In this document: positions 1 through 18,478 of the stretch, piece after piece
Layout: every line of letters begins with the position of its first letter
Numbering within the stretch: the first letter of the stretch is position 1
Origin: Actinomycetospora sp. TBRC 11914
GTDB lineage: Bacteria; Actinomycetota; Actinomycetes; Mycobacteriales; Pseudonocardiaceae
Direction of reading: 5' to 3'
DNA length: 64,000 nt
Assembly (NCBI RefSeq): GCF_012933465.1
Contig: NZ_JABBND010000019.1
Coordinates: 62,001 to 126,000, forward strand
The notes under the pieces: model-generated
Databases searched by the model: none
What the model was told of the DNA's origin: nothing
What the model saw: the letters and a program-made list of their open reading frames with translations, nothing else
Program-made: the position numbers and the translations under genes

Positions 1-1
1 C

Positions 2-922: not shown

Positions 923-989
923 CTTCGTCCCGTGAGCACTTTCTGGTGCCATGACACCAGAAAGTGCTCACGAGGCCGAAGGCCACCTA
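916..989. repeat. Dispersed palindrome family A, copy 1
   Basis: A 74-bp near-palindrome between convergent genes. The inner arms are GTGAGCACTTTCTGGTG (932-948) and its complement (955-971) around a 6-nt loop. The outer arms are AGGTGACTTCG-like on the left and CGAAGGCCACCTA on the right. The plus-strand gene stops inside the left edge, and the minus-strand gene takes its TAG from the right edge. The loop differs from copies 2-4, which carry CGGTATA or CGCTATA. A bidirectional terminator function is inferred. Confidence 0.85.
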
Positions 990-1955
990 CCTGTGGCCGG
1001 CGATCCCCCGCGGCGCGTAGGTCTCGCCGAGCTCGGTGAGCTCGTGCTCGTCGAGCTGCAGGTCCACCGCGGCCACGGCGTCGTGCAGGTGCTCGAGCTT
1101 CGTCGCGCCGATGATGGGCGCGTCCACGACGGGGTTCGCCAGCACCCAGGCCAGCGCGACCTGGGCGCGGCTGACCCCGCGCTTCTCGGCGATCTCGGCG
1201 ACCTTCTCGACGATGTGGCGGTCGGAGTCCTGGTAGAGGGTCTTGCCGAACTCGTCGGTCTCGCCGCGGGTGGTCGACTCATCCCAGTCGCGGGTGAGCT
1301 TGCCGCGCGCGAGCGGGCTCCACGGGATCGACCCGACGCCCTCGTCCGCGCAGAGCGGCAGCATCTCCCGCTCCTCCTCGCGGTAGAGCAGGTTGTAGTG
1401 GTCCTGCATCGTCACGAACCGGGCCCAGCCGTTCGCGTCCTGCAGGTGCAGCGCCTTCGCGAACTGCCACGCGAACATCGACGACGCCCCGATGTAGCGG
1501 GCCTTGCCCGACTTCACGACGTCGTGCAGCGCCTCGAGCGTCTCCTCGAGCGGCGTCTCGGGGTCGAAGCGGTGGATCTGGTAGAGGTCGACGTAGTCCA
1601 TGCCCAGGCGGGACAGCGAGTGGTCGATCCCGGTCATGATCGCCTTGCGGGAGAGCCCCGCACCGTTCGGGCCCGGCCGCATCCGGTTGAAGACCTTGGT
1701 CGCGACGACCATCTCGTCGCGGTCGCCCATCTGGTTCAGCCAGCGGCCGGTGATCTCCTCGGAGGTCCCCTGCGAGTAGACGTCGGCGGTGTCGAAGAAG
1801 TTGATCCCGGCGTCGAGCGCCGCGGAGAAGAAGGGCTTGGCCTCGTCGGACGGCAGCGCCCAGGGCCAGCGGTCGTTCGCCTCGCCGTAGCTCATGGTGC
1901 CCAGACAGATCCGGGAGACGTCCAGGCCGGTCGAGCCGAGCTTCGTGTACTCCAT
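987..1955 (-). CDS. Aldo/keto reductase
   Basis: A 322-aa NADPH-dependent aldo/keto reductase of the (alpha/beta)8-barrel family. The catalytic tetrad is visible: Asp and Tyr in FFDTADVYSQG, Lys in VVATKV, and His in YQIHRFDP. The C-terminal SKLEH-like position reads GATKLEHL, in the cofactor-binding loop. The length is normal for the soluble YajO/Tas-like group. ATG start at the end of the frame. The stop TAG is part of dispersed palindrome copy 1. It lies downstream of the FMO gene on the same strand, separated by about 200 bp that holds two further hairpins. Substrate not predictable. Confidence 0.93.
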   Translation of the reverse strand: MEYTKLGSTGLDVSRICLGTMSYGEANDRWPWALPSDEAKPFFSAALDAGINFFDTADVYSQGTSEEITGRWLNQMGDRDEMVVATKVFNRMRPGPNGAGLSRKAIMTGIDHSLSRLGMDYVDLYQIHRFDPETPLEETLEALHDVVKSGKARYIGASSMFAWQFAKALHLQDANGWARFVTMQDHYNLLYREEEREMLPLCADEGVGSIPWSPLARGKLTRDWDESTTRGETDEFGKTLYQDSDRHIVEKVAEIAEKRGVSRAQVALAWVLANPVVDAPIIGATKLEHLHDAVAAVDLQLDEHELTELGETYAPRGIAGHR

Positions 1956-2005
1956 GGTGTCGGTCTACCCCGCTCCCGCGCGCCCCGCACCCGTCGTCGT
2001 CGTGA

Positions 2006-2058
2006 TGACCGAAGGGCCCCTTCGCTCGACTAGATCGAGCGAAGAGGCCCTTCGGTCA
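2006..2058. repeat. Palindrome family B, copy 1
   Basis: A 53-bp nearly perfect palindrome that runs from TGACCGAAGGGCCCCTTCG to CCCTTCGGTCA around a central TCGACTAGATCGA-like core. It lies between the tandem minus-strand genes FMO and aldo/keto reductase. Both ends read TGA outward, giving a stop codon on each strand. Its GAGCGAAG...CCTTCG core relates it to the units at 2084-2133 and 52605-52685. Likely a terminator hairpin. Confidence 0.7.
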
Positions 2059-2083
2059 GTTCGTGTCCGCGCGCCCGATTCCG

Positions 2084-2133
2084 GCGAAGGGCGCCCCTGG
2101 CCCGTCTATCCGAGCGAAGGTGCCCTTCGCTCG
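2084..2133. repeat. Palindrome family B, copy 2
   Basis: Contains the hairpin GAGCGAAGGTGCCCTTCGCTC (2112-2132) preceded by TCTATCC. The same TCTATCC plus hairpin module recurs at 52636-52662 with one base difference in the stem. An imperfect GAAGGGCGCCCCTGG half lies just upstream. Intergenic, 20 bp from the FMO stop codon. Confidence 0.65.
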
Positions 2134-2152
2134 AGACCCGCCGGGGAGCCGG

Positions 2153-3976
2153 CTACTCCGCGTGGTGCGAGGGCTGAAGGCCGTACACCGGGGTGTCGAT
2201 GCCCTCCTGCCGGGCCTTGAGCTGCAGCGCCAGGTAGAGCGAGTAGTGGCGGCTCTGGTGCAGGTTGCCGCCGTGGAACCACAGGTTGGGCTGCTGGGTG
2301 GGCTTCCACATGTTGCGCTGCTCGCCCTCCCACGGACCCGGGTCCTTGGTGGTGTCGGAGCCCAGACCCCACACCTTCCCGACCCGGTTCGCCATGTCCG
2401 CCCCGATGATGTCGGCCACCGAGGTGATCATCGAGCGGTAGCCGGTCGCGAGCACCACCAGGTCGGCCTCGAGCTCGGTGCCGTCGTCGAGGCGCACGCC
2501 GGTCTCGGTGAACTCGGCGACCTGCCCCTTGACCAGCTTCACCTTGCCCTCGGCGACGAGGTCGGCCGCGCCGACGTCGATGTAGTAGCCCGAGCCGCGT
2601 CGCAGGTACTTCATGAACAGGCCGGACTCGTCGTCGCCGAAGTCGAGGTCGAACCCGGCGTCGCGCAGCCGCTGGTAGAAGTCGGCGTCGCGGACCTTGG
2701 CCTCGTCGTACGCCGGCTTCTGGAAGTCGGCCATGATCCGGTAGGGAAGCGACGCGAAGGTGAGGTCCGCGGTCCGGGTGGTGACGCCGGAGCGCACCGC
2801 CTCCTCGGAGTACAGCCCGCCGAGCGCGAGCTCCATCAGCGTGTCCGACTTGATGATGTGCGTCGACGAGCGCTGCACCATCGTCACGTCGGCGCCGGCC
2901 TCCCAGGCCGCCCCGCAGATGTCGAACGCGGAGTTGTTCGACCCGACGACGACGACCTTCCTGCCCTCGTAGCCCTCCGGCCCGGGGTGCTCCGACGAGT
3001 GCTGGATCTCGCCGCGGAAGCGGTCCATCCCCGGGAACTCGGGCTTGTTCGGCTTGCCCGAGACGCCCATCGCGAAGACCAGCTGCCGCGGGCGGAGCAC
3101 GACCTCCTCGGGCCCGTCGCCGCGGTCGCGCTGGACCCTCACCGTCCACCGGCCCTCGGCCTCGTCGAACTCGGCGGACTCCGCCGTCGTCGAGCCCCAG
3201 TAGTTGATCTCCATGACCCGCGTGTACATCTCGAGCCAGTCGCCGATCTTGTCCTTCGGCGCGAACACCGGCCAGTTGTCCGGGAACGGTAGGTAGGGCA
3301 GGTGGTCGTACCAGACCGGGTCGTGCAGGGCGAGGCTCTTGTACCGCTTGCGCCAGGAGTCGCCGGGCCGCGCGTTGCGCTCCACGACGATCGTCTCGAC
3401 GCCGAGCTGGCGCAGCCGGGCGGCCAGGGCGATCCCGCCCTGCCCGCCGCCGATGATCACCACCTCGGGCTGGCGGGAGTACCCCAGCTCGGCGGCCTCG
3501 CGCTCGCGGCCCTCCTTCCACGTCTCGCGGTCGGGGTCGGCGCCGTGGAACGTGCCCTTCGGGCGGCGCTCGCGCTGGTTCTCCTCGTGGCCCTTGAGCT
3601 CGTCGAGGCTGGTCAGCAGCGTCCACGCCTTGCCGTCGCGCAGCCGCAGGTGACCGGTGCCGCGCCCCACCGCGGTCTCGAACGTCAGCCACGCCTCGTC
3701 GACGCCGTCGGTGGAGGTCGCCTCGCCGCTCACCGCGAAGCCGGTGGGGTCGACCCGGTCGAGGACGGTCCGCAGCAGGTCGGCGACCTCGTCGGTGCCC
3801 TCGACGGTCGTGATGTTCCAGGTGAAGGAGACCAGGTCGCGCCAGTAGCAGTCGGTGTTGAACAGCGCCACCGCGGCCTCGACGTCGCGGGCCGACAGCG
3901 CGTCCTGGAACGCCGACACCCACTGCCCGACGCGGGCCCCCACCTCGCTCCCGGGACGGTCCAGAGTCTGGGTCAC
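2153..3976 (-). CDS. Flavin-containing monooxygenase with N-terminal NTF2/SnoaL-like domain
   Basis: A 607-aa two-domain protein. Residues about 17-125 form an NTF2-like (SnoaL/nuclear-transport-factor) fold with the FNTDCYWRDLVSFTWN segment. From residue 170 on there is a flavin monooxygenase module. Its FAD site is VVIIGGGQGG (172-181). Its NADPH site is VVVVGSNNSAFD (341-352), where the usual second-Rossmann glycine pattern is GSNNSA. The late FAD motif is LVVLATGYRS. This fusion is seen in actinobacterial NAD(P)/FAD-dependent oxidoreductases. It probably oxygenates a ketone, amine or sulfide. The ATG start follows a GGGAGAGG-type Shine-Dalgarno. Monocistronic or followed by the aldo/keto reductase. 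Confidence 0.9.
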   Translation of the reverse strand: MTQTLDRPGSEVGARVGQWVSAFQDALSARDVEAAVALFNTDCYWRDLVSFTWNITTVEGTDEVADLLRTVLDRVDPTGFAVSGEATSTDGVDEAWLTFETAVGRGTGHLRLRDGKAWTLLTSLDELKGHEENQRERRPKGTFHGADPDRETWKEGREREAAELGYSRQPEVVIIGGGQGGIALAARLRQLGVETIVVERNARPGDSWRKRYKSLALHDPVWYDHLPYLPFPDNWPVFAPKDKIGDWLEMYTRVMEINYWGSTTAESAEFDEAEGRWTVRVQRDRGDGPEEVVLRPRQLVFAMGVSGKPNKPEFPGMDRFRGEIQHSSEHPGPEGYEGRKVVVVGSNNSAFDICGAAWEAGADVTMVQRSSTHIIKSDTLMELALGGLYSEEAVRSGVTTRTADLTFASLPYRIMADFQKPAYDEAKVRDADFYQRLRDAGFDLDFGDDESGLFMKYLRRGSGYYIDVGAADLVAEGKVKLVKGQVAEFTETGVRLDDGTELEADLVVLATGYRSMITSVADIIGADMANRVGKVWGLGSDTTKDPGPWEGEQRNMWKPTQQPNLWFHGGNLHQSRHYSLYLALQLKARQEGIDTPVYGLQPSHHAE

Positions 3977-4151
3977 CGCACACCTCTCCCTCGCTCGTGC
4001 GGGCCCGGCGGGCCCCGCGTGCTTCGGTGACCACGGTCACGTGCGCACGCGCGCGCGGCAAGGGTTGCAGCGGTGTTGCGATGCCGGGCAGGGCCGGGCG
4101 TCCCGGATCACACTGGACGTGGAGTGCACTTCAGGTCATAGCGTGGAGTGC

Positions 4152-5972
4152 GTGACCGACTCCGCACCATCCCCCGTCGCTTCGCTCGCCCCGGCGCGAC
4201 GGTGGTGGATCCTCGCCGTCATCGGCGTGGCCCAGCTGATGGTCATCCTCGACAACTCCATCGTGAACATCGCGCTGCCCTCGGCGCAGGCCGACCTCGG
4301 CTTCACCGACGCGCAGCGGCAGTGGGTGGTCACCGCCTACGCGCTGGCCTTCGGCAGCCTGCTGCTGCTCGGCGGGCGGCTCTCCGACCTGTTCGGGCGC
4401 AAGGCGGCGTTCATCACCGGCCTCGTCGGGTTCGCCCTCGCCTCGGGCCTCGGGGGCCTCGCCCCGGGCTTCGGGCTGCTGGTCGGTGCCCGCGCGCTGC
4501 AGGGCGCGTTCGGCGCGCTCCTCGCCCCCGCGGCCCTCTCGCTGCTCACGACGACGTTCCCGTCCGGCCGCGACCGTGCCCGCGCGTTCGGCGTCTTCGC
4601 GACGCTGGCCGGGTCCGGCGCCGCGATCGGGCTCCTGCTGGGCGGCGCGCTCACCGAGTACGTCGACTGGCGCTGGTGCATGTACGTCAACGTCGTCTTC
4701 GCGGTCGTCGCCCTCGTCGGGGCGCTGGTCCTGCTGCCCGCGCACCCGGCGCAGCACCGTCCGCGCCTCGACCTCGCCGGCACCCTCACCGCGTCCGGCG
4801 GGCTGTTCTGCATCGTCTTCGGGTTCGCGACGGCGGAGACCAGCGGCTGGACGTCGTGGGTCGTCTACGTCTTCCTCGCTGCCGGCGTCGTGCTGCTCGC
4901 GGCATTCGTCGCGATCCAGCGGACGGTGACCGCCCCGCTCCTGCCGCTGCGGGTGCTGCTCGACCGGCACCGCGGCGGCTCGTTCCTGACGATCCTCGTG
5001 CTCACCACCGGCATGTTCGGGGTCACGCTCTTCCTGGCCTACGTGCTGCAGCAGGACCTCGGCTTCTCCCCGGTGATGACGGGCGTGGCGATGCTGCCGA
5101 TGGTCGCGGCGATCATGTCCGTGTCGACCTCGGCGCCCGCGCTGCTGCTGCCGCGGATCGGCCCGAAGCCGCTGATCTTCACCGGGCTGCTGCTCGGGGC
5201 CGGCGCGCTGTTCTGGTTCTCGTTCCTCTCCCCCGGCTCCTCGTACGCCGGCAGCGTGCTCGGCCCGCTGATCGTCATGGGCCTGGGCATGGGCACCGCG
5301 ATGTCGACCTCGATCAACACCGCGACGCTCGGCGTGGACCCGCGGGACGCGGGCGTGGCGTCGGCGAGCGTGAACACGATGCAGCAGGTCGGCGGGTCGG
5401 TCGGCACCGCGCTGCTGTCCTCCATCGCGGGCACGGCCACCGCCGCCTCGCTCGCGATCGCCGGCACCTCGCCGCGGACCGCCGCCCTCGCCGGGTACGA
5501 CCGGGCCTTCGTCGTCGCCTCGCTCATCTTCCTCGTCGGCGCGGTGGTGTGCGGGCTGCTGGTGCCCGCCGGCCGGCCGCACGCGACGCCGGCCGCCACG
5601 CGCGCCGGGGACGGTGCCCGCGCGCTGCCCAGTACGGCGGACGACTCCTGGGGCGGCCCGGACAGCGTCCCGACCCCGACCCCGGTCACCGCGCGCACCG
5701 GCGAGGGCGGCCTGGTCGGACGGGTGCTCGACGGCTCCCCCGCCGGCCGGGGCCCGGTCGCGGCCACCGTGACGCTGATCGACGCCAGCGACGGCGCCCA
5801 GGTCGGGCGGGCCCGGACCGCCGCCGACGGCTCCTACTCCCTGTCGGTGCCGCGTCCCGGCGACTACCTGCTCGTCTGCGCGGCACCGGGCGCCCGGCCG
5901 GTGGCCGAGCGGGTGCGCGTGGCGGCGACGGACCTCGCGATCTCCCGCGACCTCTGGGCCCCCGCCGGTTGA
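4152..5972 (+). CDS. MFS drug exporter (14-TM EmrB/QacA type) with C-terminal carboxypeptidase-regulatory-like domain
   Basis: The transporter part (about residues 1-475) has the DHA2 signatures: LDNSIVNIALPSAQADLGF in TM1, the loop motif GRLSDLFGRK, and motif C near GSGAAIGLLLGG. After TM14 and a proline/threonine linker comes a beta-sandwich domain of about 85 aa. That domain carries GLVGRVLDG, ADGSYSLSVPRPGDYLLV and a YxLVCAAPG-like strand typical of carboxypeptidase regulatory-like or Cna-B-like folds. The GTG at 4152 is chosen because a GGAG precedes it; an in-frame GTG at 4143 is possible. The frame stays open far upstream but that part is not protein-like. It converges on the multicopper oxidase with only 4 bp between the stops. 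Confidence 0.88.
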   Translation: MTDSAPSPVASLAPARRWWILAVIGVAQLMVILDNSIVNIALPSAQADLGFTDAQRQWVVTAYALAFGSLLLLGGRLSDLFGRKAAFITGLVGFALASGLGGLAPGFGLLVGARALQGAFGALLAPAALSLLTTTFPSGRDRARAFGVFATLAGSGAAIGLLLGGALTEYVDWRWCMYVNVVFAVVALVGALVLLPAHPAQHRPRLDLAGTLTASGGLFCIVFGFATAETSGWTSWVVYVFLAAGVVLLAAFVAIQRTVTAPLLPLRVLLDRHRGGSFLTILVLTTGMFGVTLFLAYVLQQDLGFSPVMTGVAMLPMVAAIMSVSTSAPALLLPRIGPKPLIFTGLLLGAGALFWFSFLSPGSSYAGSVLGPLIVMGLGMGTAMSTSINTATLGVDPRDAGVASASVNTMQQVGGSVGTALLSSIAGTATAASLAIAGTSPRTAALAGYDRAFVVASLIFLVGAVVCGLLVPAGRPHATPAATRAGDGARALPSTADDSWGGPDSVPTPTPVTARTGEGGLVGRVLDGSPAGRGPVAATVTLIDASDGAQVGRARTAADGSYSLSVPRPGDYLLVCAAPGARPVAERVRVAATDLAISRDLWAPAG

Positions 5973-5976
5973 GGCA

Positions 5977-7527
5977 CTACTCCGGGTCGTTCGGGGTGTC
6001 CGCGCCGGCCCGGTAGGGCGTCGTCACGCCCTCGTACATGAGGTGCGCGACGAGGCCCTGCTTCGGGTGGGCGAGGTTGTGGCAGTGGTCCATCCACAGC
6101 CCCGGGTTGTCGGCGACGAACGCGACGTCGTAGGTCGCGCCGTCGGGCACGTCGAGCGAGTCGATCCACCACGGGCTGCCGGTGGCGGGGACGCCGTCGC
6201 GGGCGAGCACGACGGCGTGGTGGCCGTGCAGGTGCATCGGGTGGACCTCACCGGAGGTGTTGCTGATGCGCATCCGCACCACGTCGCCCTCGCGGACCAT
6301 GAACATGGGCACGTCGGGGTAGAGGTGGCCGTTGATCGTCCAGTAGAGCCCCGGCACCCCGTCGACGAATCCGGGCCGCCGGCCGATGGCGTAGTCGAAG
6401 ACCCGGGTCGGGACGGTCGGGTCGAAGCCGACCGTCACGGGGGTGAGCGGGGTCGGGGTCCCGTAGTGGAGCAGGTCGACGACCGGGGTCGGCGGCGGCG
6501 CCGGCGGCGTCGGCGCTGCTCCTGGCCGCGGGTTCCCGACGACGACCGCCACCCCGCCCAGCTCGACCCGCGCCGGGGCGGTGACCTCGAGGTCGGCCCG
6601 CCCGCCCGCGGTCACCTGGGTGGCGGCGCCGGTGACCGGGGTCGGTCCGCGGACGTCGGTCCCGTCGACGGCGAGGACGCGGTAGGGGGACGCGGACCAC
6701 GCCCGCATCGGGCCGGTGTCGGTGTTGGTCACCCGCACCCGGACGACGCTGCCCGGTGCGGCCGGGACCGCGAGGTCGCCGTCGACCCCGGCCACGGTGC
6801 GCCGGCCGTCGTAGAGGTGCACGAGCGCGGAGACGTCGCTGGCTGACGGCACCGCGGACGTGCCTCGCGGCACGACCACGAACGACCCGAACAGCCCGCC
6901 GCGGACCTGGTCGTCGGCGACCTGGTGGGAGTGGTACCAGAAGCTGCCGGCCTGGTCGGCCCGGAAGCGGTAGACGAACTGCCCGCCGGGCAGCACCGCG
7001 TCCTGGGTGACCCCGGCGACGCCGTCGTCGCCGTTCGGGACGTCGAGGCCGTGCCAGTGCAGGGTCACCCCGCGGGGCACGTCGGCGTTCACCAGCCGGA
7101 CCCGCACCGTCTGGCCCTGCACGGCGCGGATCTCGGGGCCCGGGGTGGTGCCGTTCAGGGTGTAGCCGGTGACGGTCCGCCCGCCCGCGAGCCGCACCGT
7201 CTGGGCGCGGGCGACGAGGGTGACGTCGACGTCGGCGGGGCCATCGGGCAGGCGCAGGGTGTCGACCGGGCGCCCCGTGCCGGCCATCCCCGCCATCCCG
7301 TGGTCGGGCATCAGCGGCGGACCACCGCCGTCGTCGGGGTAGCCCATGTCGGTCACCGACCAGGTGCCCGACGGCAGGCTGGCCGCCCAGGACCAGACGA
7401 TCGGGGCGAGGACCGCCAGCGCGGCCAGGACGGCGACGAGGGTGCGCCGGCGGCTCCGTCGCACCGGGGCGGGAGGGGGTGCGAGCGGGGGCCCGCCCTC
7501 GGGGCGGGCCTCGTCCGTCTCGAGCAC
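5977..7527 (-). CDS. Membrane-anchored multicopper oxidase
   Basis: A 516-aa protein with an N-terminal membrane anchor (about residues 29-50, after RRSRRR) and three cupredoxin domains. Copper ligands are seen at HWHG (157-160), WYHSH (197-201), HPMHLHG (429-435) and HCHNLAHPKQGL (481-492). The type-1 axial position is Leu rather than Met, which in laccases tends to raise the redox potential. A Met-rich segment (DHGMAGMAG, near 75-83) may bind copper. The GTG start has GGGAGGA 6 nt upstream. It probably oxidises Cu(I) or phenolics outside the membrane. It lies 38 bp downstream of a small membrane protein, probably in one operon. Confidence 0.92.
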   Translation of the reverse strand: MLETDEARPEGGPPLAPPPAPVRRSRRRTLVAVLAALAVLAPIVWSWAASLPSGTWSVTDMGYPDDGGGPPLMPDHGMAGMAGTGRPVDTLRLPDGPADVDVTLVARAQTVRLAGGRTVTGYTLNGTTPGPEIRAVQGQTVRVRLVNADVPRGVTLHWHGLDVPNGDDGVAGVTQDAVLPGGQFVYRFRADQAGSFWYHSHQVADDQVRGGLFGSFVVVPRGTSAVPSASDVSALVHLYDGRRTVAGVDGDLAVPAAPGSVVRVRVTNTDTGPMRAWSASPYRVLAVDGTDVRGPTPVTGAATQVTAGGRADLEVTAPARVELGGVAVVVGNPRPGAAPTPPAPPPTPVVDLLHYGTPTPLTPVTVGFDPTVPTRVFDYAIGRRPGFVDGVPGLYWTINGHLYPDVPMFMVREGDVVRMRISNTSGEVHPMHLHGHHAVVLARDGVPATGSPWWIDSLDVPDGATYDVAFVADNPGLWMDHCHNLAHPKQGLVAHLMYEGVTTPYRAGADTPNDPE

Positions 7528-7565
7528 GACCGTCCTCCCGCCCCGCGCCGAGTCGACCTGGCCGG

Positions 7566-8039
7566 TCAGACCTTCGCGGCGTGGGCGCCGGTCGCGGGCT
7601 CGTCGTCCATCGCGGAGGGGGCGCCGGAGGACTTGCGGGCCGCGACGAGCGCGACGACGAGGAGCACGAGGGCGACGACGCCGTGGAGGATGCCGAGCGA
7701 CGGGACCGAGTGCGCGAAGATCCCGAGCGCGACCTGGACGATCACCGCGGCGAACGCCGCGCCGGCCCACGCGACCGCGCCCGGGAACCGGGCGAAGAAC
7801 GACACGACGAACAGCAGCAGCCCGATCACGGGGACGATCATCTGGCCGTTGAGGCCGTGGACGGCGAACCCGAGGACGCCGTCGAAGGCGGTCCCGTCGC
7901 TCTCCATCTGCGCCTTGTCGAGCACGCCGCCGTTCTCGATCCAGGTCGAGAGGCCGAACACGGCCCAGGCGATGGCCGCCGCCTGCACGACGACCTCGAG
8001 GGCCAGCAGGTAGGCCAGGACACGGTAGGTGGCGCGCAT
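7566..8039 (-). CDS. Small four-TM membrane protein (DUF6220-like)
   Basis: A 157-aa protein with four hydrophobic helices: about 6-27, 62-80, 84-105 and 108-128. GFAVHGLNGQM and GILHGVVALVLL carry His-Gly pairs that could face a haem or metal, as in small cytochrome-b-like membrane proteins. The C-terminus is a polar tail. The ATG at 8039 has GGGGGAG 5 nt upstream; a GTG 21 bp further out is less well placed. The position just ahead of the multicopper oxidase suggests a joint role in copper or redox homeostasis at the membrane. The DUF6220 assignment is from memory of the family and is tentative. Confidence 0.75.
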   Translation of the reverse strand: MRATYRVLAYLLALEVVVQAAAIAWAVFGLSTWIENGGVLDKAQMESDGTAFDGVLGFAVHGLNGQMIVPVIGLLLFVVSFFARFPGAVAWAGAAFAAVIVQVALGIFAHSVPSLGILHGVVALVLLVVALVAARKSSGAPSAMDDEPATGAHAAKV

Positions 8040-8274
8040 CGGGACTCCCCCAGATCTCACATGCGGTGGTGATGGCGAGGCCGCCGTGGGTCCTCTGGCC
8101 CAGCGCCACAGGGACGTCCTCGCGCGATAGTTACTCTAAGTCCCCGATGTGGCGCAGGTCTTACCTCTTTCGAGTGAGTCGCCTGGTTCTCGGTGTCGGC
8201 GCGCGATCAGTGACGTGTGCCGCCCCGGGCGGGCACCGCCCGTGGGCGCCGGACGGGATGGGTACCGTCGGGGC

Positions 8275-8604
8275 ATGGCCGACAGCCTCACCGACACGAC
8301 CTCGGTCCCGGATCTCGTCGGGCTCGCCGCGGCGGACGCCCACGATGCCGCGCTCGACGCGCGTCTCCTGGCCGTCCCGCAGAACGCCGCCCACACGGGG
8401 GCCGGGCGCAGCACCGTCACCAATCAGCGTCCGCGCGCGGGAGCCTCCGCCACCCCGGGCGACACCATCTCGATCTGGGTCGACGACCCAGCGGCCGGTC
8501 CCTCCTCGGACGAGGGTCCCGACGACGACGGCTCGGGCGGCGGGGGCGGCGGCTCGCGCGTCCCCGACGGCCCGAAGCCGACCCCGACGGCGGGCGCCGC
8601 CTAG
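8275..8604 (+). CDS. Small PASTA-domain protein
   Basis: A 109-aa protein. Residues about 9-70 form one PASTA unit: VPDLVGLAAADAHDAALDARLL, the typical entry into the domain, then PRAGASATPGDTISIWV, which matches the closing strand. The rest is an acidic, glycine-rich tail (a DDDGSGGGGGGS-like run) and a Pro/Thr end. It has no signal peptide or TM helix, so it is cytosolic or a fragment of an ancestral PknB-like receptor. ATG start. Two TAG codons follow each other at 8602-8607, the second belonging to the dispersed palindrome. Divergent from the multicopper oxidase operon. Function unknown. Confidence 0.75.
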   Translation: MADSLTDTTSVPDLVGLAAADAHDAALDARLLAVPQNAAHTGAGRSTVTNQRPRAGASATPGDTISIWVDDPAAGPSSDEGPDDDGSGGGGGGSRVPDGPKPTPTAGAA

Positions 8605-8678
8605 TAGGTGGCCTTCGGCCTCGTGAGCACTAAGTGCCGCTATACCGACATTTAGTGCTCACGGGCCGGAGGCACCTA
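8605..8678. repeat. Dispersed palindrome family A, copy 2
   Basis: Reads TAGGTGGCCTTCGGCCTCG, then GTGAGCACTAAGTG, CCGCTATACCG, and the complementary half, ending in CACCTA. Both ends carry TAG in the outward-reading sense: TAG at 8605 follows the PASTA stop, and the TAG at 8678-8676 is the stop of the minus-strand Dabb gene. Located between convergent genes. Confidence 0.9.
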
Positions 8679-8978
8679 GTGGGCGAACTGCACCGCCGTC
8701 CGCGTCGCGATCCGCGGCGCGATGTGCTCGGCGATGATCGACCGGTGCTCCGGGTCGTCCCGGTAGCGCTCGTAGGCATCCTGGTCGGTGAACGTGGCCG
8801 ACACCGCGAACGCGGCGTTCCCGTCCGCCAGGCCCAGGTCGGTCCCCGCCTGCCAGGCGACCAACCCCTCGAGCTCCCCCTTGTCGATCCAGGTCTGCAG
8901 CCGGGTCCGGATGTCCTCGACGGTCTCCGGCGCGGTGCCCTCGACCCAGCTGAACGTGACGACGTGCGTGACGGCCAT
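8676..8978 (-). CDS. Dabb (stress-responsive alpha/beta barrel) protein
   Basis: A 100-aa dimeric ferredoxin-like Dabb-domain protein. The MAVTHVVTFSW strand, the central LVAWQAGTDLGLADG segment, and the conserved DQDAYERYRDDPEHRSI helix ending near HIAPR are all typical. The ATG at 8978 has AGGA 8 nt upstream. An ATG at 8987 overlaps the gmd stop as ATGA and would add three residues. It is translationally coupled to the gmd-like gene. Dabb proteins range from heat-stable stress proteins to polyketide cyclases; the role here is unknown. Its stop codon is given by palindrome copy 2. Confidence 0.85.
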   Translation of the reverse strand: MAVTHVVTFSWVEGTAPETVEDIRTRLQTWIDKGELEGLVAWQAGTDLGLADGNAAFAVSATFTDQDAYERYRDDPEHRSIIAEHIAPRIATRTAVQFAH

Positions 8979-8983
8979 GGTCG

Positions 8984-10009
8984 TCATCCTGCCAGTGACG
9001 TCACCCCGGACACCGGTCCCTCGAGGGCGGAGAGCTCCGCGTCGACGAGGATCCGGGCGAGCTCGGGCACGAACGTGCGCGGACGCCAGCCCAGCGCCGC
9101 CGCCGCGCCCGACGGGTCGCCGACCAGCGCGTCCACCTCGGCCGGCCGCACCAGGCGCTCGTCGAACCGGACGTGCCGCGTCCAGTCGAGGCCGACGTGG
9201 GCGAAGCAGGCCCGTGCGACGTCCTCGACGGTGTGCGCGGTCCCGGTCGCGAGGACGTGGTCCCGCGGTTCGTCCGCCTGCAGCATCGCCCACATCCCCT
9301 CGACGTACTCGGGCGCGAAGCCCCAGTCCCGGACGGCGTCGAGATTCCCGAGCGTCACGTGGCGCTCGCGGCCCAGGGCGATCCGGGCCGCCGCGCGGGC
9401 GATCCGCCGGGTCACGAACGCCTCCCCGCGTCGCGGCGACTCGTGGTTGAACAGGATGCCGTTGACCGCGTGGGTGCCGTAGGTCTCGCGGTGGGTGCGC
9501 ACCGCCCAGTACGCGGTGAGCTTGGCCAGCGCGTGCGGTGAGCGGGGCCGCATCGGGCCGTCCTCGTGCTGCGGCGGCGGGGTGTCGCCGAACATCTGGG
9601 CCGACGCGGCGTGGAACACCCGGACGTCGAGGTCGATCAGCCGCACCGCCTCGAGCAGGCGGACGGTGCCCAGCCCGGTGACGTCCGCGGCCGCCTCGGG
9701 CTGCCGGAACGACGCGGCCACGTCGGTCTGCGCGGCGAGGTGGTAGACCTCGTCGGGCGCGATCTCGGAGAGCAGCGCGACGAGCCGCGAGGAGTCGGTG
9801 ACGTCGCCCTCGTGGAGCACGAGCCCCGGGCGCCCCTCGTAGGGATCGGCCAGCACGTGCTCGACGTGCGCGGTGGACGCCGGCGACACCCGCCGCGCCA
9901 GGCCGTGGACCTCGTAGCCCTTGGCGAGCAGGAGCTCGGCGAGGTACGAGCCGTCCTGGCCGGTCACGCCGGTGATCAGGGCGGTCCGCGCGTGCAGCGG
10001 GGCGCTCAC
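8984..10009 (-). CDS. gmd: GDP-mannose 4,6-dehydratase homologue with altered catalytic residues
   Basis: A 341-aa extended SDR. Along its whole length it follows Gmd: cofactor motif GVTGQDGSYLAELLLAKGYE (14 onward), NGILFNHESPRRGEAFVTRR, and the DAVRDWGFAPEYVEGMWAML block. The catalytic centre differs. The STSE segment reads ASAQ (135-138), so the base Glu is Gln138. The YxxxK motif reads HALAK (159-163), so the catalytic Tyr is His159; Lys163 is kept. Both codons are clear in the DNA (CAG and CAC). The GTG start has GAGAGGAG 7 nt upstream. It either has a different activity or has lost dehydratase function. No fucose synthase gene adjoins it. Confidence 0.85.
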   Translation of the reverse strand: MSAPLHARTALITGVTGQDGSYLAELLLAKGYEVHGLARRVSPASTAHVEHVLADPYEGRPGLVLHEGDVTDSSRLVALLSEIAPDEVYHLAAQTDVAASFRQPEAAADVTGLGTVRLLEAVRLIDLDVRVFHAASAQMFGDTPPPQHEDGPMRPRSPHALAKLTAYWAVRTHRETYGTHAVNGILFNHESPRRGEAFVTRRIARAAARIALGRERHVTLGNLDAVRDWGFAPEYVEGMWAMLQADEPRDHVLATGTAHTVEDVARACFAHVGLDWTRHVRFDERLVRPAEVDALVGDPSGAAAALGWRPRTFVPELARILVDAELSALEGPVSGVTSLAG

Positions 10010-10109
10010 GTCGGCTCCTCTCTCCCGTGGATACCTCTCGCGGGACGCGGACCGGCCGGCGCCGTGTCGCCACGACCACGGCGATTCACCCGATGCGGGG
10101 GTCACGCGC

Positions 10110-10295
10110 CCAGGAACGAGCCATTGCCACCGCCGAGGCGGCCGGCCCGTCCCGCCCGGCCCACGACCGAGCGGCGCCGTCCCCCCGTCCGACGCCAGGA
10201 ATGTGCCATTGCCACCGTCGAGCTGGCCGGCCCGTCCCGCCCGGCCCACGGGCGAGCGGCGCCGTCCTCCCGTCCGACGCCAGGAATGTGCCATC
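10110..10295. repeat. 85-bp tandem repeat, about 2.2 copies
   Basis: Units start with CCAGGAAYGWGCCATYG at 10110, 10195 and 10280, so the period is exactly 85 bp. The first two full units share GGCCGGCCCGTCCCGCC and GAGCGGCGCCGTCC segments with few substitutions. The third is cut after about 16 bp. It fills the space between the PBP stop and the gmd upstream region. Frames through it are shadow ORFs. No gene seen. Confidence 0.9.
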
Positions 10296-10332
10296 GGCGC
10301 CGCGGGCCGGGGCGGGACCGACCGACGGCTGG

Positions 10333-12594
10333 TCAGCTCGACGGGGCCGCCGGTGGCGCCGCGACCTTCCCGGTCGAGGACACCAGCGAGATCGTCTGCC
10401 CCTGAATCGCCTGGCCGCTGCCACCCGCCGGCGTCTGCCCGACGACGGTGCCCGCCGGGGCCCGGCTGTCGACCGTCGACGTGGTCACCACGAACCCGGC
10501 GTCGCGCAGGTCCGAGGTGGCCTGGGCGAGGGGCCGGCCGATCTCCTGCGGCACCGAGATGCGGTTGCCGCCGGTCACGTAGCGGGGGTCGGTCGGCGGC
10601 AGCGGCAGCACCGGCTGACCCGCCAGGTACTGGTTCATCGCCTGGTAGAAGGTCTGCGCCGGGGTGTTGCCACCGAACAGGTTCCCGGTGGAGCACGACG
10701 TCGGCGGGGTGCCGTTGCAGATCGGGCGGGGACTCGACGAGTCGTCGAAGACGATCGAGGCGGCCGAGACCTGCGGGGTCGCGCCGACGAACGCCCCCGA
10801 CTCCGAGGTCTCGGTGGTCCCCGTCTTCGCCGCCGTCGGGCGGTTCCAGCCCGCGGCCGCGGCGGCCGCCGCCGAGGTGCCCCCGGGCTGGTCGTCCTTG
10901 GACATCCCCGTCATGAGGGTGTCGGCGAGCGGGGCGGGCAGCGCCTGGTGGCAGGCCGTCGCCGGGATCGTCACCGGGGAGCCGGTGGCGTCGGTGACCG
11001 AGAGGATCGGGTTCGGTGGGCACCACGTGCCGTTCGAGGCCAGCGTGGCGTCGACGTTGGCGAGCTCGAGCGGGCTCGTCGGCGTCGGGCCGAGGGTGAA
11101 CGACGCCTGGTTCTGGGCCTTCATGGTGTCCGCCAGCGACGGGCCACCGGGGGTCTCCGGCTTCGCGAGCGACGTCATGCCCAGGTTCACGGCCATGTCG
11201 ACGACCGGCGCCACGCCCGTCGTCTCCTCCAGCTTGACGAACGCGGTGTTGGGCGACTGCGCGAGGGCGTCCTGCAGGGACAGCTGGCCGGGGTAGTTGC
11301 CGTCGTTCTTCACGACGAAGCCGGGGGTCAGCGGCGAGGCGTACCCCGACGGCGGGACCGGCAGGATGTTGGAGATGCCGCCGCCGCCCATGAGGTAGGT
11401 GGCCGAGGTGAAGATCTTGTAGACCGAGCCGGCGCCGAGGTTCTCGGGCTCGGCGGGCAGGTCGTAGGTCGTCTGGCCCTGCGAGGCGTCCAGCCCGTAG
11501 CCGCGGTTCGCGGCGAGCGCGAGGACGGGGTGGCTGGTCGCCCCGGGCTGCACGACGGCGAGGGTGTCGGCCACGTGCGGCTGGGTCGGTGGGACCTGCG
11601 CGTCGACGGCCTGCTTGGCGGCGGCCATCGCGGCCGGGTTCAGCGTGGTGCGCACCGTGTAGCCGCCGGAGCGCAGCTGCTCCGGGGTGATGCCGGCCTG
11701 GTCGAGGTAGTCGAGGACGTAGGCGCAGAAGAACCCGTCGTCGCCGGCGCCGACGCAGCCGTTGGAGACCCCGTGCAGCGGCGCCTGCACCCCCAGCGGC
11801 GCGGCCTGCGCGGCCGCGGCCTGCTCGGGGCTGAGCTCGCCCTGCTGGCGCATCTGGTCGATGACGACGTTGCGCCGGCCGGTGGCGGCCTGCGGGTGGT
11901 TCACCGGGTCGTACGCCGACGGGCTCTGCACCATCCCGGCGAGGAGCGCCGCCTCCGGCACCGTCAGGCGGTCCGGGGTGGTGTTGAAGTAGGTGCGCGC
12001 GGCCGCGGCGACCCCGAACGACTGGTTCCCCAGGTACACCACGTTGAGGTAGCGGGTGAGGATCTCGTCCTTGGACAGCGTGTGGTCGAGCTGCTCGGCG
12101 ACGCGCGCCTCCCGCAGCTTGCGGCCGAACGTCGCCTCGGTGGCCTTGAGCTGCTCCGCCGGCGTCTTGGCCGCGACGTACTCGTCGTAGTTCTTGACGT
12201 ACTGCTCGGTGAGCGTCGAGGCGCCCTGGGTCGAACCGCCCGAGCCGTTGTTGACGACGGCCCGCACGATGCTGCGCGGGTCGAGCCCGGATTCGGAGAA
12301 GAACCGCCGGTCCTCGATGGCGACGATGGCCGCCTTCATCGTCACCGAGATCTGCTGGGACGGGACGATCTGCCGATTCTGGTCATAGAGGTACGCAATG
12401 GGAGCACCCGCGTCGTCGGTGATCGTCGTGATCGAGGGCATGTCGCCGCCCAGCACCCCCGGGGAGGTGTCCTGCGCGCCCTCGATGGCCTGGTTGGACA
12501 GGAGTCCCAGGCCTCCGACCAGCGGAAAGGTGATCCCCGCGATGAGGATCCCCGCGATCACCGTCACGGCCAGCAGCCGCACCTTCGCCGTCAT
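10333..12594 (-). CDS. Bifunctional class A penicillin-binding protein with PASTA domain
   Basis: A 753-aa PBP1/PonA-type enzyme for septal or side-wall peptidoglycan. Order of parts: one N-terminal TM (about 6-33), a GT51 glycosyltransferase with catalytic Glu in IEDRRFF (E94) and QGASTLTEQYVKN, then a transpeptidase with SVYK (S390-K393), SPN (447-449) and KTG (590-592), then a PASTA-like unit (about 680-745) with IGRPLAQATSDLRDAGF. The basic cytoplasmic N-terminus is unusually short (4 residues). ATG start, without a strong Shine-Dalgarno. Monocistronic. The 3' end borders the 85-bp tandem repeat. Confidence 0.95.
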   Translation of the reverse strand: MTAKVRLLAVTVIAGILIAGITFPLVGGLGLLSNQAIEGAQDTSPGVLGGDMPSITTITDDAGAPIAYLYDQNRQIVPSQQISVTMKAAIVAIEDRRFFSESGLDPRSIVRAVVNNGSGGSTQGASTLTEQYVKNYDEYVAAKTPAEQLKATEATFGRKLREARVAEQLDHTLSKDEILTRYLNVVYLGNQSFGVAAAARTYFNTTPDRLTVPEAALLAGMVQSPSAYDPVNHPQAATGRRNVVIDQMRQQGELSPEQAAAAQAAPLGVQAPLHGVSNGCVGAGDDGFFCAYVLDYLDQAGITPEQLRSGGYTVRTTLNPAAMAAAKQAVDAQVPPTQPHVADTLAVVQPGATSHPVLALAANRGYGLDASQGQTTYDLPAEPENLGAGSVYKIFTSATYLMGGGGISNILPVPPSGYASPLTPGFVVKNDGNYPGQLSLQDALAQSPNTAFVKLEETTGVAPVVDMAVNLGMTSLAKPETPGGPSLADTMKAQNQASFTLGPTPTSPLELANVDATLASNGTWCPPNPILSVTDATGSPVTIPATACHQALPAPLADTLMTGMSKDDQPGGTSAAAAAAAGWNRPTAAKTGTTETSESGAFVGATPQVSAASIVFDDSSSPRPICNGTPPTSCSTGNLFGGNTPAQTFYQAMNQYLAGQPVLPLPPTDPRYVTGGNRISVPQEIGRPLAQATSDLRDAGFVVTTSTVDSRAPAGTVVGQTPAGGSGQAIQGQTISLVSSTGKVAAPPAAPSS

Positions 12595-12733
12595 CGACCC
12601 CAGACCCGCTCGAACCGGACAATTCCTGCAGCGGCTTGTTCCGCGTACCGCTCCAGTGTCCCCGCCCGTCGGGAAAGCACTCGTGAGGGCCCGGTGGCGT
12701 GTTCCTCACCGCAACCCGTCGGGCCCCCGCGCG

Positions 12734-13981
12734 TCACCAGCGCACGGGCAGTTCGTGCACCCCGTAGACGGCCATCGTGTCGCGGAACGGGATGTCCTCG
12801 ACGGCGGCGTCGACGCGCAGGTCCGGGAAACGGCGCAGCAGGGCCGGGTAGGCGGCCTGCAGTTCGACCCGGGCGAGCTGCTGGCCGAGGCACTGGTGGA
12901 CGCCGTGCCCGAAGGCGACGTGGTGGTTCGGGCTGCGCTCGACGTCGAGGGTGTCCGGCGCCGGGAACGCCTCGGGGTCGCGGTTGGCGATCTCGCCGGC
13001 CGCGATGACGCCCTCGCCGGCCCGGATGAGCACGCCACCGACCTCGACGTCCTCGGTCGCCGCCCGCCGCCGCCCGATGTGGGTCACGGTGAGCAGCCGC
13101 AGCAGCTCCTCGACGGCACCGTCCACGGCGTCACCGGAGCGCACCCGGGCCGCCTGTTCGGGGTCCCGCAGCAGCACGAGGGTGCCGAGCGCGATCATGT
13201 TGGCGGTGGTCTCGTGGCCCGCGACCAGCAGCAGCAGCCCCATCGACCCGGCCTGCTCGCGCGTGATCTCCCCCGTCAGCACGTGGCGCGCGGCCAGCCG
13301 CCCGAGCAGGTCGACCGGCTCCCACCCCGTGCCGGCCTCCTCCCCCGCCCGCGCCTGCTCCTCCCGCTGCGCCACCAGCCCCTCGAGGTACCGCCGCAGC
13401 TCCTCGGACGCGGTCCTCGAGGCCTCCGGGCTGGACGTGGTGTCGACGATCGTGTGCGAACGGCTCTGGAAGAACGGGTGGTCCGCGTAGGGCACCCCGA
13501 GCATGCGGCAGATCACGAGGGAGGGCAGCGGCAGGGCGAAGGCCTCGACGAGGTCCGCCGGCTGCGGACCCGCCGCCATCGCGTCGAGCAGCTCCTCGAC
13601 CGTCTCGTCGATCATCGGGCGCAGCCGCTTCACGGCCTTGACGCTGAACTCGCTGATGAGCATGCGCCGGAAGAAGGCGTGGTCGGGGTCGTCCATGGCG
13701 ATGAACGACGGCGAGTCCCGGCGGCGCGCGAGCAGGCCCGGCGACGACGGCGGGTACCCGGGAGAGTCCGTGTCGGCGGAGAAGCGCTGGTCGGCGAGCA
13801 CCGCCCGGACGTCGGCGTGCCGGGTGACCAGCCACGGGCGGCTGCCGTCCCACAGCGCCACCCGCCGCACCGGCTCCTCGGCCTGCAGCTCCGCCAGCTC
13901 CGCCGGCGGGTCGAACGGGCACTGCCGGGCCATCGGGTAGGTCGGGTCCTGCGCCTCGCCGTTCTCCAGCACCGTCGTCAC
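12734..13981 (-). CDS. Cytochrome P450 (bacterial class I, CYP105-like)
   Basis: A 415-aa soluble P450. The I-helix oxygen motif is AGHETT (254-259), the K-helix ExxR is EELLR (about 291-295), and the haem loop is FGHGVHQCLGQQLAR with Cys364 as thiolate ligand. The GTG at 13981 is preferred because GGAGG sits 8 nt upstream; a GTG 9 bp earlier is inside that site. No ferredoxin or ferredoxin reductase gene is adjacent, so redox partners must be supplied elsewhere. The substrate is unknown. CYP105-type enzymes often modify xenobiotics or natural products. Confidence 0.95.
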   Translation of the reverse strand: MTTVLENGEAQDPTYPMARQCPFDPPAELAELQAEEPVRRVALWDGSRPWLVTRHADVRAVLADQRFSADTDSPGYPPSSPGLLARRRDSPSFIAMDDPDHAFFRRMLISEFSVKAVKRLRPMIDETVEELLDAMAAGPQPADLVEAFALPLPSLVICRMLGVPYADHPFFQSRSHTIVDTTSSPEASRTASEELRRYLEGLVAQREEQARAGEEAGTGWEPVDLLGRLAARHVLTGEITREQAGSMGLLLLVAGHETTANMIALGTLVLLRDPEQAARVRSGDAVDGAVEELLRLLTVTHIGRRRAATEDVEVGGVLIRAGEGVIAAGEIANRDPEAFPAPDTLDVERSPNHHVAFGHGVHQCLGQQLARVELQAAYPALLRRFPDLRVDAAVEDIPFRDTMAVYGVHELPVRW

Positions 13982-14236
13982 GGCCGCCACCTCCGTTGTT
14001 CGTTGCTTGGGCTAACGATACGAGTGCGGCTTTCTAGACGCCAGCGGAGCGTCGTTGCTTGCATCCAGTGGCAGGAAAGCCCCGTCGTCGCACGGGCGCT
14101 CGCCCGCCGTCGTCGCCCGGACGGCCGTACCGCCCGGCGAGCTCCCCCGTTCGTGCAGCTCGACGCGGTCCCGCCGACTGCGTGAGATCGCAGGGGCCGC
14201 CCGACACCGGAGGCGGCGCGACGGGGGTGGGGGACG

Positions 14237-15889
14237 GTGGCGGCTGGACGGTGCTCGCGCTGCGGCGCGGCGCGGACCGAGGGCTGGGCGTTCTGTCGAG
14301 CCTGCGGCGCGGTCGACATCCCCGCCCCCAGGGCGGCCGCCGACGCCGCGATCCCGGCGCGCGAGCGGCGCGTCGCGACGGCGCACGGCTCCGCGACATC
14401 GGCCCAGACCCCGGCGGCGACCCCGACCCCGGCCGCGACTCCGACTCCGACCCCGACTCCGCGCTCGGGCGCGACTCCGGCCCCGACTCCGCGCCCGACC
14501 CCGACTTCGCGCCCCGCCCGAACCACCGCACCCGGACGCCCCGCACCCCGGCCCGGCCCGCGTCCCGCCGCCGGGCCCCGACGGGTCCCGCTGCGCGACG
14601 ACGCCACCGACCGCCGTGCCCTCCGCGGCGCCATCCCGACCCTCACAGCCGGCACCCCCCGCGACTGGCTCGCCGCCTTTCTCGCCGCCGCCGCGACCCT
14701 CGCCGTGCTGGCGGTCCCCGGGGCCGTGCTCGCCCTCGTCGCCGGCACCGAGTCGCCGACCGGCGGCGCGGTGTCCCCGCTGGTGCTGGTGCCCGTCTCC
14801 GTCGCCCTCGGGGTCGGCGGCTCGGTCGCGGTGCAGCTCGACCTCGGACTGCTCGGCGGCGTGCACAGCGTGGTCGCCGGCACCCCGCTGCTCGCGACCG
14901 GTGTCGCCGTCGCCACCGGCGCCTCGCTCGTCGTCGGCGACGCCCGGCCCGCGGCCGACGTCCCCGCCCAGGCGCTGCGCGCACTCGTGGCGTTCCTGCT
15001 CGGCCTGGCCGGCATCGCGCTCACCGGGCACGCCGTCGCGACCGGCGGCGCGATCAGCGTCGCGGTCCTGCCGACCCTGCTCGGCGGCGCGCTGTGGTTC
15101 TCCGGCGCGCTGGCCTTCGCGCTGGCCTGGCGCCGCCCGGACACCCTGCCGCCCGGGCTGCGCCGCGCCCGCGACGTGCTCGCCGGACCCACCGCCGGAG
15201 CGGGCGCCGTGCTCGGCTCCTGCTGGCTCGGTGGGCTGGCCCTGGTGGTGGCCGGGGCGCTCGCGCGGGCGGGACGCGGGACGGGGACGGCGGGTCTGCT
15301 GCCGGGCGGCTGGTCGGACGCGGCCGGGTCCTCCCCGACGGCGGGCCTCGTCGCGGTCGTCGCGCTCGTCGTGTTCGCCCCGACGGCGCTGCTGGCCGCG
15401 TTCGCGTTCTGCCTCGGGGTGCCGCTGGTCGGGCACGGGCCGACGGGTGACGCCGAGGTCGGCCTGGTCCACCTGCTCGGGTCGGGTCCGTCGTGGTGGC
15501 TGGCGCCGCTGGTGGGGACGATCGTGTGCGCGCTCGGCGGCATGGTCGCGGCGCTGCACGCGCCGTCCCCCGACGCGGCCGTCCGCCGCGGCTGGGCGCT
15601 GGGCCCGGCCCTGGCCGTAGGGCTCGGCCTCCTCACGGTGGTCACCGCGCTGTCCGCGGGGCCGTTCGGCGTCGAGCTCGACCTCGCGCCGGCCGTGGTG
15701 CTCGGGCTGGGCTGGGGCGCGGTCGGCGGGCTCCTCGGCGCCGTGGTGGCGCCCGGTCTGCCGCCCGCCCTGCGGCAGGGTCGGCTGGGCGGCTCCCCCA
15801 CCGGCCAGGTGGTCGGCGTGCTCGTCGTCGTGGGCTTCCTCGGCGCCGCGCTCGTGATCGGCTTCGCCGCGGCGGCCAACATCACCTGA
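14237..15889 (+). CDS. Zinc-ribbon polytopic membrane protein with Thr-Pro linker
   Basis: A 550-aa protein with no clear enzymatic family. Residues 1-30 hold a zinc ribbon with two CxxCG-type knuckles (CSRCG and CRACG). Next is a low-complexity Pro/Thr/Ala linker (about 55-110) with PTPAATPTPTPTP-like repeats. From about 143 there are some ten hydrophobic helices in pairs, with Gly-rich turns. The DNA of the linker is itself a degenerate GACCCCGACTCCG repeat (14400-14520), so it is probably length-variable. It resembles the large uncharacterised membrane proteins of streptomycetes. GTG start after GGGGGTGGGGGAC. Function unknown. Confidence 0.75.
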   Translation: MAAGRCSRCGAARTEGWAFCRACGAVDIPAPRAAADAAIPARERRVATAHGSATSAQTPAATPTPAATPTPTPTPRSGATPAPTPRPTPTSRPARTTAPGRPAPRPGPRPAAGPRRVPLRDDATDRRALRGAIPTLTAGTPRDWLAAFLAAAATLAVLAVPGAVLALVAGTESPTGGAVSPLVLVPVSVALGVGGSVAVQLDLGLLGGVHSVVAGTPLLATGVAVATGASLVVGDARPAADVPAQALRALVAFLLGLAGIALTGHAVATGGAISVAVLPTLLGGALWFSGALAFALAWRRPDTLPPGLRRARDVLAGPTAGAGAVLGSCWLGGLALVVAGALARAGRGTGTAGLLPGGWSDAAGSSPTAGLVAVVALVVFAPTALLAAFAFCLGVPLVGHGPTGDAEVGLVHLLGSGPSWWLAPLVGTIVCALGGMVAALHAPSPDAAVRRGWALGPALAVGLGLLTVVTALSAGPFGVELDLAPAVVLGLGWGAVGGLLGAVVAPGLPPALRQGRLGGSPTGQVVGVLVVVGFLGAALVIGFAAAANIT

Positions 15890-15992
15890 GTTCCTCGTCC
15901 GTTCGGGTGGTCCTCGTAACGGCCGGATGCCGCAGGGCGACGACCGGGGCGACACGCTTCGTCGGGGAGCGTCGAGGTTCTCGGGGGAAACC

Positions 15993-16247
15993 ATGATCAG
16001 CACCGTCGTCGTCGGGACCGCCGCGCTGGGCGCCTGGCTCGTCGCACCATTCGTCGCGATGGCCCGCCAGGGCACGCTGGACGACCAGACCCGCGCCGCG
16101 ATGCGCGAGGAGGGCCTGCGCGCCGAGGCGATCCGCCGGGCGCGTCACCGCGAGGCGCTCGTCGCCGCCGCCGCCCTCGAGATCCCCGCTCCGCGCGGGG
16201 CCGAGCATGACGCCCTGCCGCGGCGCAGCGCCCTCGTCGGCGTCTGA
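15993..16247 (+). CDS. Small single-TM protein
   Basis: An 84-aa protein: one N-terminal TM helix (ISTVVVGTAALGAWLVAPFVAM, about residues 2-23) followed by a basic/acidic amphipathic helix (DDQTRAAMREEGLRAEAIRRARHREAL). Start ATG 15993 chosen because GGGGG lies 6 nt upstream; the open frame extends 66 bp further without a ribosome site. No family recognised. It stands alone between the zinc-ribbon protein and the patatin gene. Confidence 0.6.
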   Translation: MISTVVVGTAALGAWLVAPFVAMARQGTLDDQTRAAMREEGLRAEAIRRARHREALVAAAALEIPAPRGAEHDALPRRSALVGV

Positions 16248-16352
16248 CCGCGGCACTCCCCGCCCGGGAAGACCGCGCCCCAAGGAGGCGCACCGCGCCC
16301 CGAGGGGAGGTCCGCGGTGGTGACGCGGGACGGAGGGGGATGATCGAGGGCG

Positions 16353-17363: not shown

Positions 17364-17411
17364 TCCCCGCAGTCGCGGGCGGCCAGGTCACCGGCGCTCC
17401 GACGTCCGGTC

Positions 17412-18257: not shown

Positions 18258-18309
18258 CGCCCCTCGCCCTCTCCCCGGTCTCCTCCGTTCCTACCGCCGC
18301 CGCGTGGGT

Positions 18310-18377
18310 GGCAGCCACGACCTGCCGATCCCCCCGTCGTGATCCGCGGAAGGGGGGATCGGCATGCCGTGGCTGTC
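18310..18377. promoter_or_regulatory. Long inverted repeat in XRE/SDR intergenic region
   Basis: Two 26-bp arms (18310-18335 and 18352-18377) are complementary apart from a few bases near the middle of each arm. They contain GCAGCCACG and TGCCGATCCCCCC and are separated by 16 bp. The position between divergent promoters argues for an operator, or for a structured 5' leader of the SDR mRNA, rather than a terminator. Confidence 0.65.
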
Positions 18378-18478
18378 CTCGCGGCGCGCGGTGAGTGTCG
18401 GTGTCGCCGGGCCCCGACGTGGAGCCCTCCGGGACTCCGTCCCCGCAGTCGCCCGACACGCACCACCGAGGAGGAGCC

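Follow-up and report, generated by a model that had tools for sequence, protein, structure and literature searches.

A high-copy, two-way-symmetric palindromic module at gene ends in Actinomycetospora, probably terminator-like and rewritten in place between species

The window analysed here is a 64,000-nt stretch of the genome of Actinomycetospora sp. TBRC 11914 (G000), corresponding to positions 62001-126000 of contig C11. A 40-nt palindrome of the form GTGAGCA-N26-TGCTCAC occurs in it four times, against none in 100 shuffles. Each palindrome is the core of a module of ~76 nt, which consists of AGGTG, a small hairpin, the core, a second small hairpin and CACCT, such that two sets of terminal inverted repeats, GTGAGCA/TGCTCAC and AGGTG/CACCT, are present. 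The four elements and the genes that they adjoin are as follows.

Element 1, 917-989, core 932-971, of the CTTTCTGGTG type
Element 1, left tip: AGGTGA, with TGA at 920-922, the stop of the plus-strand gene 65-922
Element 1, right tip: CACCTA, with TAG (minus strand) at 987-989, the stop of the minus-strand gene 987-1955 (aldo/keto reductase)
Element 2, 8605-8678, core 8623-8662
Element 2, left tip: TAG at 8605-8607, directly after the TAG at 8602-8604 with which the plus-strand PASTA gene itself ends
Element 2, right tip: TAG (minus strand) at 8676-8678, the stop of the minus-strand gene 8676-8978 (Dabb domain)
Element 3, 19500-19571, core 19515-19554; left tip unused as a stop
Element 3, right flank: the C-terminal tail ...RCPSGS of the minus-strand gene 19551 (MDMPI_N family), with its TGA stop inside the core
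Element 4, 22722-22797, core 22739-22778, in a co-directional setting; left tip GGGTG, the following minus-strand gene starting at 22709
Element 4, right tip: TAG (minus strand) at 22795-22797, the stop of the minus-strand gene 22795-23847 (luciferase-like monooxygenase)

A first-pass annotation of this DNA had pointed out that the minus-strand genes 987, 8676 and 22795 stop at the TAG of a terminal CACCTA, that gene 19551 stops at the TGA within GTGAGC and that a second TAG stands right behind the PASTA stop; each of these observations holds at the coordinates listed, the product of gene 19551 ending ...QPRCPSGS. The use of the left tip of element 1 by the plus-strand gene is a further case, and the window contains one exception, a plus-strand gene ending at 19456 whose stop is 58 nt ahead of the core of element 3.

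In the genome as a whole (6.52 Mb), the pattern has 149 forward matches, a few of which are not 40 nt long since a gap of 14-40 was allowed, versus 1 for the reversed control pattern. Matches were found in 18 of the 18 genomes of the genus that were searched, at 2 to 184 each. Among 249 genomes sampled from the family with a looser pattern, the palindrome is abundant in some genera and close to the control in others, with an uneven distribution inside single genera; in genus g26, counts by species are 0-6 in ten, 31 in one and 133-248 in five. An Rfam scan of the window gave no family at its gathering score, and the element is not named in the matches, mostly the top-ranked ones, from the open-access literature on palindromic intergenic terminators and inverted repeats. 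Two elements of G000, at C2:217046-217085 and C4:201975-202014, lie less than 15 nt from contig ends, and such palindromes may break assemblies.

For closer analysis, 53 strict copies were assembled from 864 kb (the window and 800 kb of contig C1) and 22 further loci, with genes called by a simple purpose-made finder (784 genes in the 864 kb). Of these copies, 33 lie between convergent genes, 17 between co-directional genes and none between divergent genes, with three not resolved at the ends of their loci. None is inside a called gene, except for genes that end in the copy.

The fold of the module was analysed by covariation in 30 copies (26 from G000 and four from G006), selected out of 61 scanned for having GGTG at a fixed place on both sides; they align without gaps. 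A model with three hairpins is 93.1% paired, with 13 of its 26 pairs changed on both sides; the two mini-hairpins are 99.2% and 100% paired and are kept through two-sided changes. Pairing of the left flank with the right flank fails in 14-17 of the 30 copies at four varying mini-stem columns, and left and right stem types are alike in 10 of 53 copies versus 13.3 expected, so that they are uncorrelated. On these grounds, the outer arms are two independent small hairpins beside the core hairpin, and a single long hairpin, which is less supported by covariation than three, was rejected. In a single copy, the two flanks may nevertheless match by chance, as they do in window copies 2 and 3; one long hairpin is then predicted, and the single-sequence folds of these two copies prefer it to three. 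Hairpin stabilities for the four window copies on both strands range from -47.5 to -63.9 kcal/mol (z -5.6 to -10.6).

The 53 strict copies are faced by 85 gene 3' ends, and their stop codons keep a distinctive register. In 40 of the 85, the distance from stop to core is precisely 15 nt (+15), and every one of these stops is TAG; together with five at +16 and one at +17, they form a tip class of 46 ends. A further 29 stops are inside the core (20 TGA at -4, five TAA at -11 and four TAG), and the remainder lie either between +6 and +58 (seven) or more than 60 nt away (three). At the 33 convergent pairs, both stops are in or at the element in 30 and both are flush with it, at 15-17, in 10. The background usage in the 784 called genes is 629 TGA, 142 TAG and 13 TAA.

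The register extends to a relative, G006, where 13 of 22 stops within 60 nt are at 13-17, all of them TAG, seven at exactly +15. It was not seen in G005 (10 copies), G001 (six) or G003 (four): in G005, six of 12 stops are the in-core TGA and two the tip TAG, and in G001 and G003, one divergently placed copy among those of G001, stops are mostly TGA and scattered. The tip register is thus a feature of G000 and G006 among the genomes compared and is not genus-wide.

Ordinary terminators in short convergent gaps might have been squeezed onto stop codons by deletion and selection, with no copying involved. Other stems are also mostly 4-38 nt from stops, and the gaps between convergent genes that have no element are short (median 37.5 nt, 128 pairs). 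We consider this reading quite improbable, since compaction yields neither a shared sequence nor 40 of 85 stops at one distance from the core with one codon. Around 61 other stems (at least 14 bp, from the 864 kb), the 57 facing stops within 60 nt comprise 45 TGA and only 12 TAG, range from -21 to +54 and place no more than 11 of the 57 in a single 3-nt bin, in a control that is measured from stem edges, mixes unrelated stems, including a sister family with GTGAACG, and is thus not fully like for like. Measured in the same way, from stem edges, 16 family copies qualify, and their 25 stops within 60 nt include 18 TAG, with at most 8 of 25 per 3-nt bin. The contrast in TAG usage with other stems is therefore firm, and the sharp stop position is visible once the copies are aligned on the core.

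The sister palindrome, GTGAACG...CGTTCAC, occurs eight times in the G000 sample, often flanked by CAT/ATG (e.g., at C1:15907, 893884, 953030 and 1172951, in L150, L180, L182 and L189), and also ends genes at an in-core TGA of its own (7 of 14 facing ends). Closure of reading frames was considered as a separate function of the first family. Stops occur in all three frames at 20 of 104 half-sites, in two at 49 and in one at 35, the corresponding values in shuffles being 1.8%, 21% and 51%, with none in 26%; the candidate function was rejected, the closure being largely the conserved TGA and the used TAG.

The conserved GTGAGCA(C), found as inverted pairs at gene ends, also recalls the DNA-uptake words that Neisseria and Pasteurellaceae carry in terminators. 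The single word GTGAGCAC is, however, not enriched: it occurs 88 times outside elements, where a Markov-5 model expects 102.5 occurrences over all places, and we have rejected an uptake role as extremely improbable.

The nucleotide before the tip bears on how the TAG arises. T precedes AGGTG in 44 of the 46 tips used as stops, by construction, and at unused tips in four of 29 in-core sides, two of 22 sides with no near facing gene and two of seven others. Because T is rare at unused tips, we infer that the AG comes from the element and the T from the gene or from selection. These counts are relevant to a transposing element, akin to a MITE or REP, that prefers stop codons (the T of TGA or TAG, or TA) and whose AG tip rebuilds TAG. 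Such an origin, which we judge unlikely, would account for the high copy number, the conserved ends, the constant 40-nt core and the patchy spread in the family (genus g26 alone ranges from 0 to 248 matches), as well as for the tandem TAG-TAG at 8602-8607 and the TGA with which 9 of the 12 element-free orthologues compared with tip-class genes end. However, the T expected from a TA duplication is present in only six of 51 unused tips (in-core sides and those with no near gene; the seven other sides, two of which have TAG, were excluded), and many sites are common to several species but have different cores. The convergent pairs, with both stops flush or in the element as counted above, are likewise hard to obtain from one insertion. 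No Y1/REP-type transposase, the sole transposase family searched, is present in the genome: the PF01797 profile has no match in G000 (97% complete) and is positive in five of 14 control genomes. A REP/RAYT origin was rejected for lack of this enzyme.

A further account, put forward in the first-pass annotation, is that the element lands near gene ends, brings a new stop and resets C-termini. For three of the four window genes, element-free orthologues have their own stop after the same residue, the very outcome that the annotation had named as refuting its proposal. For gene 987, 7 of 7 orthologues from Actinomycetospora have the same last residue position, and five of them have no core (relatives outside the genus were excluded). 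The same is true of 14 of 14 element-free orthologues of gene 8676 (50-73% identity), and all 16 orthologues of gene 22795 (86-97% identity) end ...KPLLG, with or without the element. Hits of 31-48% identity to 8676 and 19551 (L104-L113, L130 and L131), a hit of 46% to 22795 that has an in-core stop (L149) and a cut contig (L103) were excluded. Gene 19551 behaves as had been proposed. G009, G005 and G002 have a full element there with the stop within it, remnants judged by eye lie in or beside the stop in G006 and G017, and the protein of G013, which has no element, ends ...DDQPVAR. The conserved part of the protein is uncut, and the change is limited to the last 5-8 residues. In G006, stop and tail persist although the core has decayed.

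A wider set of orthologue comparisons with G005 and G006 divides along the same line. It excludes pairs below 60% identity, short alignments, genes less than 150 nt from the end of a segment, one 'far' row, seven rows with another GTGAG/GTGAAC palindrome and 12 baseline rows in which the orthologue has a palindrome. In the tip class, 8 of 12 element-free comparisons (nine genes) end alike, which is the baseline rate (231 of 345, p=1), and the orthologue has a TGA stop in 9 of the 12. C-termini of this class are thus not reset, the element coinciding with the stop. In the in-core class, by contrast, none of seven element-free comparisons (six genes, one perhaps with a remnant) shares an end (p=5e-4 against the same baseline); the orthologue is longer in three, shorter in three and equal in one, with tail differences of -5 to +7 residues. 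Tail and stop of these genes are element sequence, with no systematic shortening.

The proposal of C-terminal resetting hence stands for in-core stops and falls for tip stops. As a general account, landing with resetting seems doubtful to us. It is favoured by the 29 of 85 ends with element-encoded tails and by the 19551 site, and wherever a tip-class comparison gives different ends (four cases), the longer protein is that of the orthologue (by 1, 1, 3 and 8 residues); against it stand the tip class (46 of 85 ends), whose agreement with element-free counterparts is at the baseline rate, and the balanced lengths in the in-core class.

At nine orthologous sites where both genomes have a copy, 11 comparisons give a mean of 10.7 differing positions in the inner 26 nt, and all cross-species pairs give 12.5 (G006) and 11.4 (G005) differences. 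Copies within one genome differ at 7.3 positions in G000, 10.7 in G006 and 12.5 in G005; homogenisation across a species is accordingly in evidence for G000 only, as copies within G006 or G005 are not that alike. Sequence just outside the core can match across species, as it does after the core at C1:641723 in G000 and G006. Some sites without the element hold another palindrome, as judged by eye. The closest pair, G001 and G003, has four copies at matching places, and at g1 272487 G003 has another palindrome instead, the gene end changing from ...LAV to ...LAAA (by eye); no clean insertion was seen when this pair was checked for clean empty sites. Most likely, the module is replaced or rewritten in place between species while the gene ends stay put.

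Other palindrome types are present too. The window has neighbouring copies of one at 2006-2058 and 2085-2132 (GAAGGGCCCC and GAAGGTGCCC), the former bounded by TGA...TCA, and palindromes like these are found elsewhere in G000 and at some relatives' sites that lack the first family. G186 and G074, from other Pseudonocardiaceae genera, have 397 and 463 exact 40-nt GTGAG palindromes (L289-L305) with centres of their own, GTTCTAAC/GTTAGAAC; in G186, a T run stands behind the stem in some of them.

Overall, we favour, with a probability of about 0.6, the reading that this is a high-copy, two-way-symmetric, terminator-like module of gene ends that is rewritten in place between species. Copy number, the register in G000 and G006, the three-hairpin covariation, the behaviour of C-termini and the differing cores at the same sites are taken directly from the data; that the module terminates transcription and is copied as a unit is what we infer. 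The reading as terminator-like is based on the position at gene ends, on a hairpin that forms on both strands and on T runs in genus g28, where, among nine loci, a T run follows the stem of the 40-nt palindrome in L289 and L301 and an A run precedes it in L289. Lying between convergent genes, or behind a gene whose neighbour points the same way, the module would serve as a terminator or RNA 3'-end structure for both strands. By the tip route, the last codon is followed by a T that, with the AG of the tip, makes TAG, and the C-terminus is unchanged. By the in-core route, the frame enters the module for ~18-25 nt and is closed by the TGA in GTGAGC or by the TAA in CTAA, in which case the module encodes the tail of the protein.

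There is no U-tract after the core in the four window copies, and a consensus terminator scan of positions 1-20000 of the window found no terminator. Given the general size of the ribosomal footprint, the 15-nt flank would leave the core immediately beyond a ribosome that has halted at the TAG of the tip. Against termination is the proximity of the stops: in E. coli, a terminator placed only a few base pairs behind a stop was almost fully repressed, and its full effect was reached only beyond ~27 nt (PMC4824070), so that a ribosome terminating 15 nt from the hairpin, or inside it, should be able to block it.

As to how the module comes to lie flush with both stops, block replacement would fit best, and transposition into stop codons may be another route. 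A bolder version, which we advance tentatively and think unlikely, is a spreading gene-end cassette, made up of two-sided stops, a flank hairpin of ribosome length and the core hairpin, that replaces convergent intergenic segments as blocks. If it is true, genomes keep rewriting their gene ends with the element and retain protein tails made by it, as at the 19551 site.

The module resembles several known systems in part. It is like bidirectional, or overlapping, terminators, including the U-lacking ends of GC-rich actinobacteria, in its convergent placement, its stable symmetric hairpin and its want of a U-tract; Streptomyces clavuligerus has U-lacking hairpin ends, with 55 bidirectional ends reported (PMC8269248). 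Here, however, there is a single repeated family with three hairpins, a fixed stop register and cores that differ between species at the same site. The REPs of E. coli are likewise repeated extragenic palindromes at gene 3' ends, and stalling of ribosomes is reported for REPs no more than 15 nt from a stop (PMC12306157), but in the present case no Y1 transposase was found, the unit is symmetric with three hairpins and the tip is part of the stop. MITEs at gene 3' ends, such as QMITE1 and QMITE2 of Coxiella, overlap gene C-termini by 1 to 50 bp and in one strain presumably supply 33 C-terminal residues (PMC5896051); the present module is much shorter, has a fixed register in most copies and shows no recognised direct repeats at its tips. 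In Rickettsia palindromic elements, too, a palindromic repeat has become protein sequence (PMC2229807), but those lie in frame inside genes, which none of the 53 copies does apart from those in which a gene ends. The uptake-signal terminators of Neisseria and Pasteurellaceae, too, have a conserved word that forms inverted pairs where genes end (PMC1852404), and differ in that single words are not enriched here.

One repeated unit ties together the choice of stop codon, the sequence of the C-terminus and the hairpin at the message end, which are usually treated apart. The ~150 copies in one genome form a natural set for studying the smallest distance possible between a translation stop and a terminator-like hairpin, and also how dispersed palindromes retain their position and structure when the sequence at orthologous sites changes. 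The window also has a long inverted repeat at 18312-18375, between divergent genes (17412-18257 on the minus strand and one from 18479 on the plus strand), which is operator-like.
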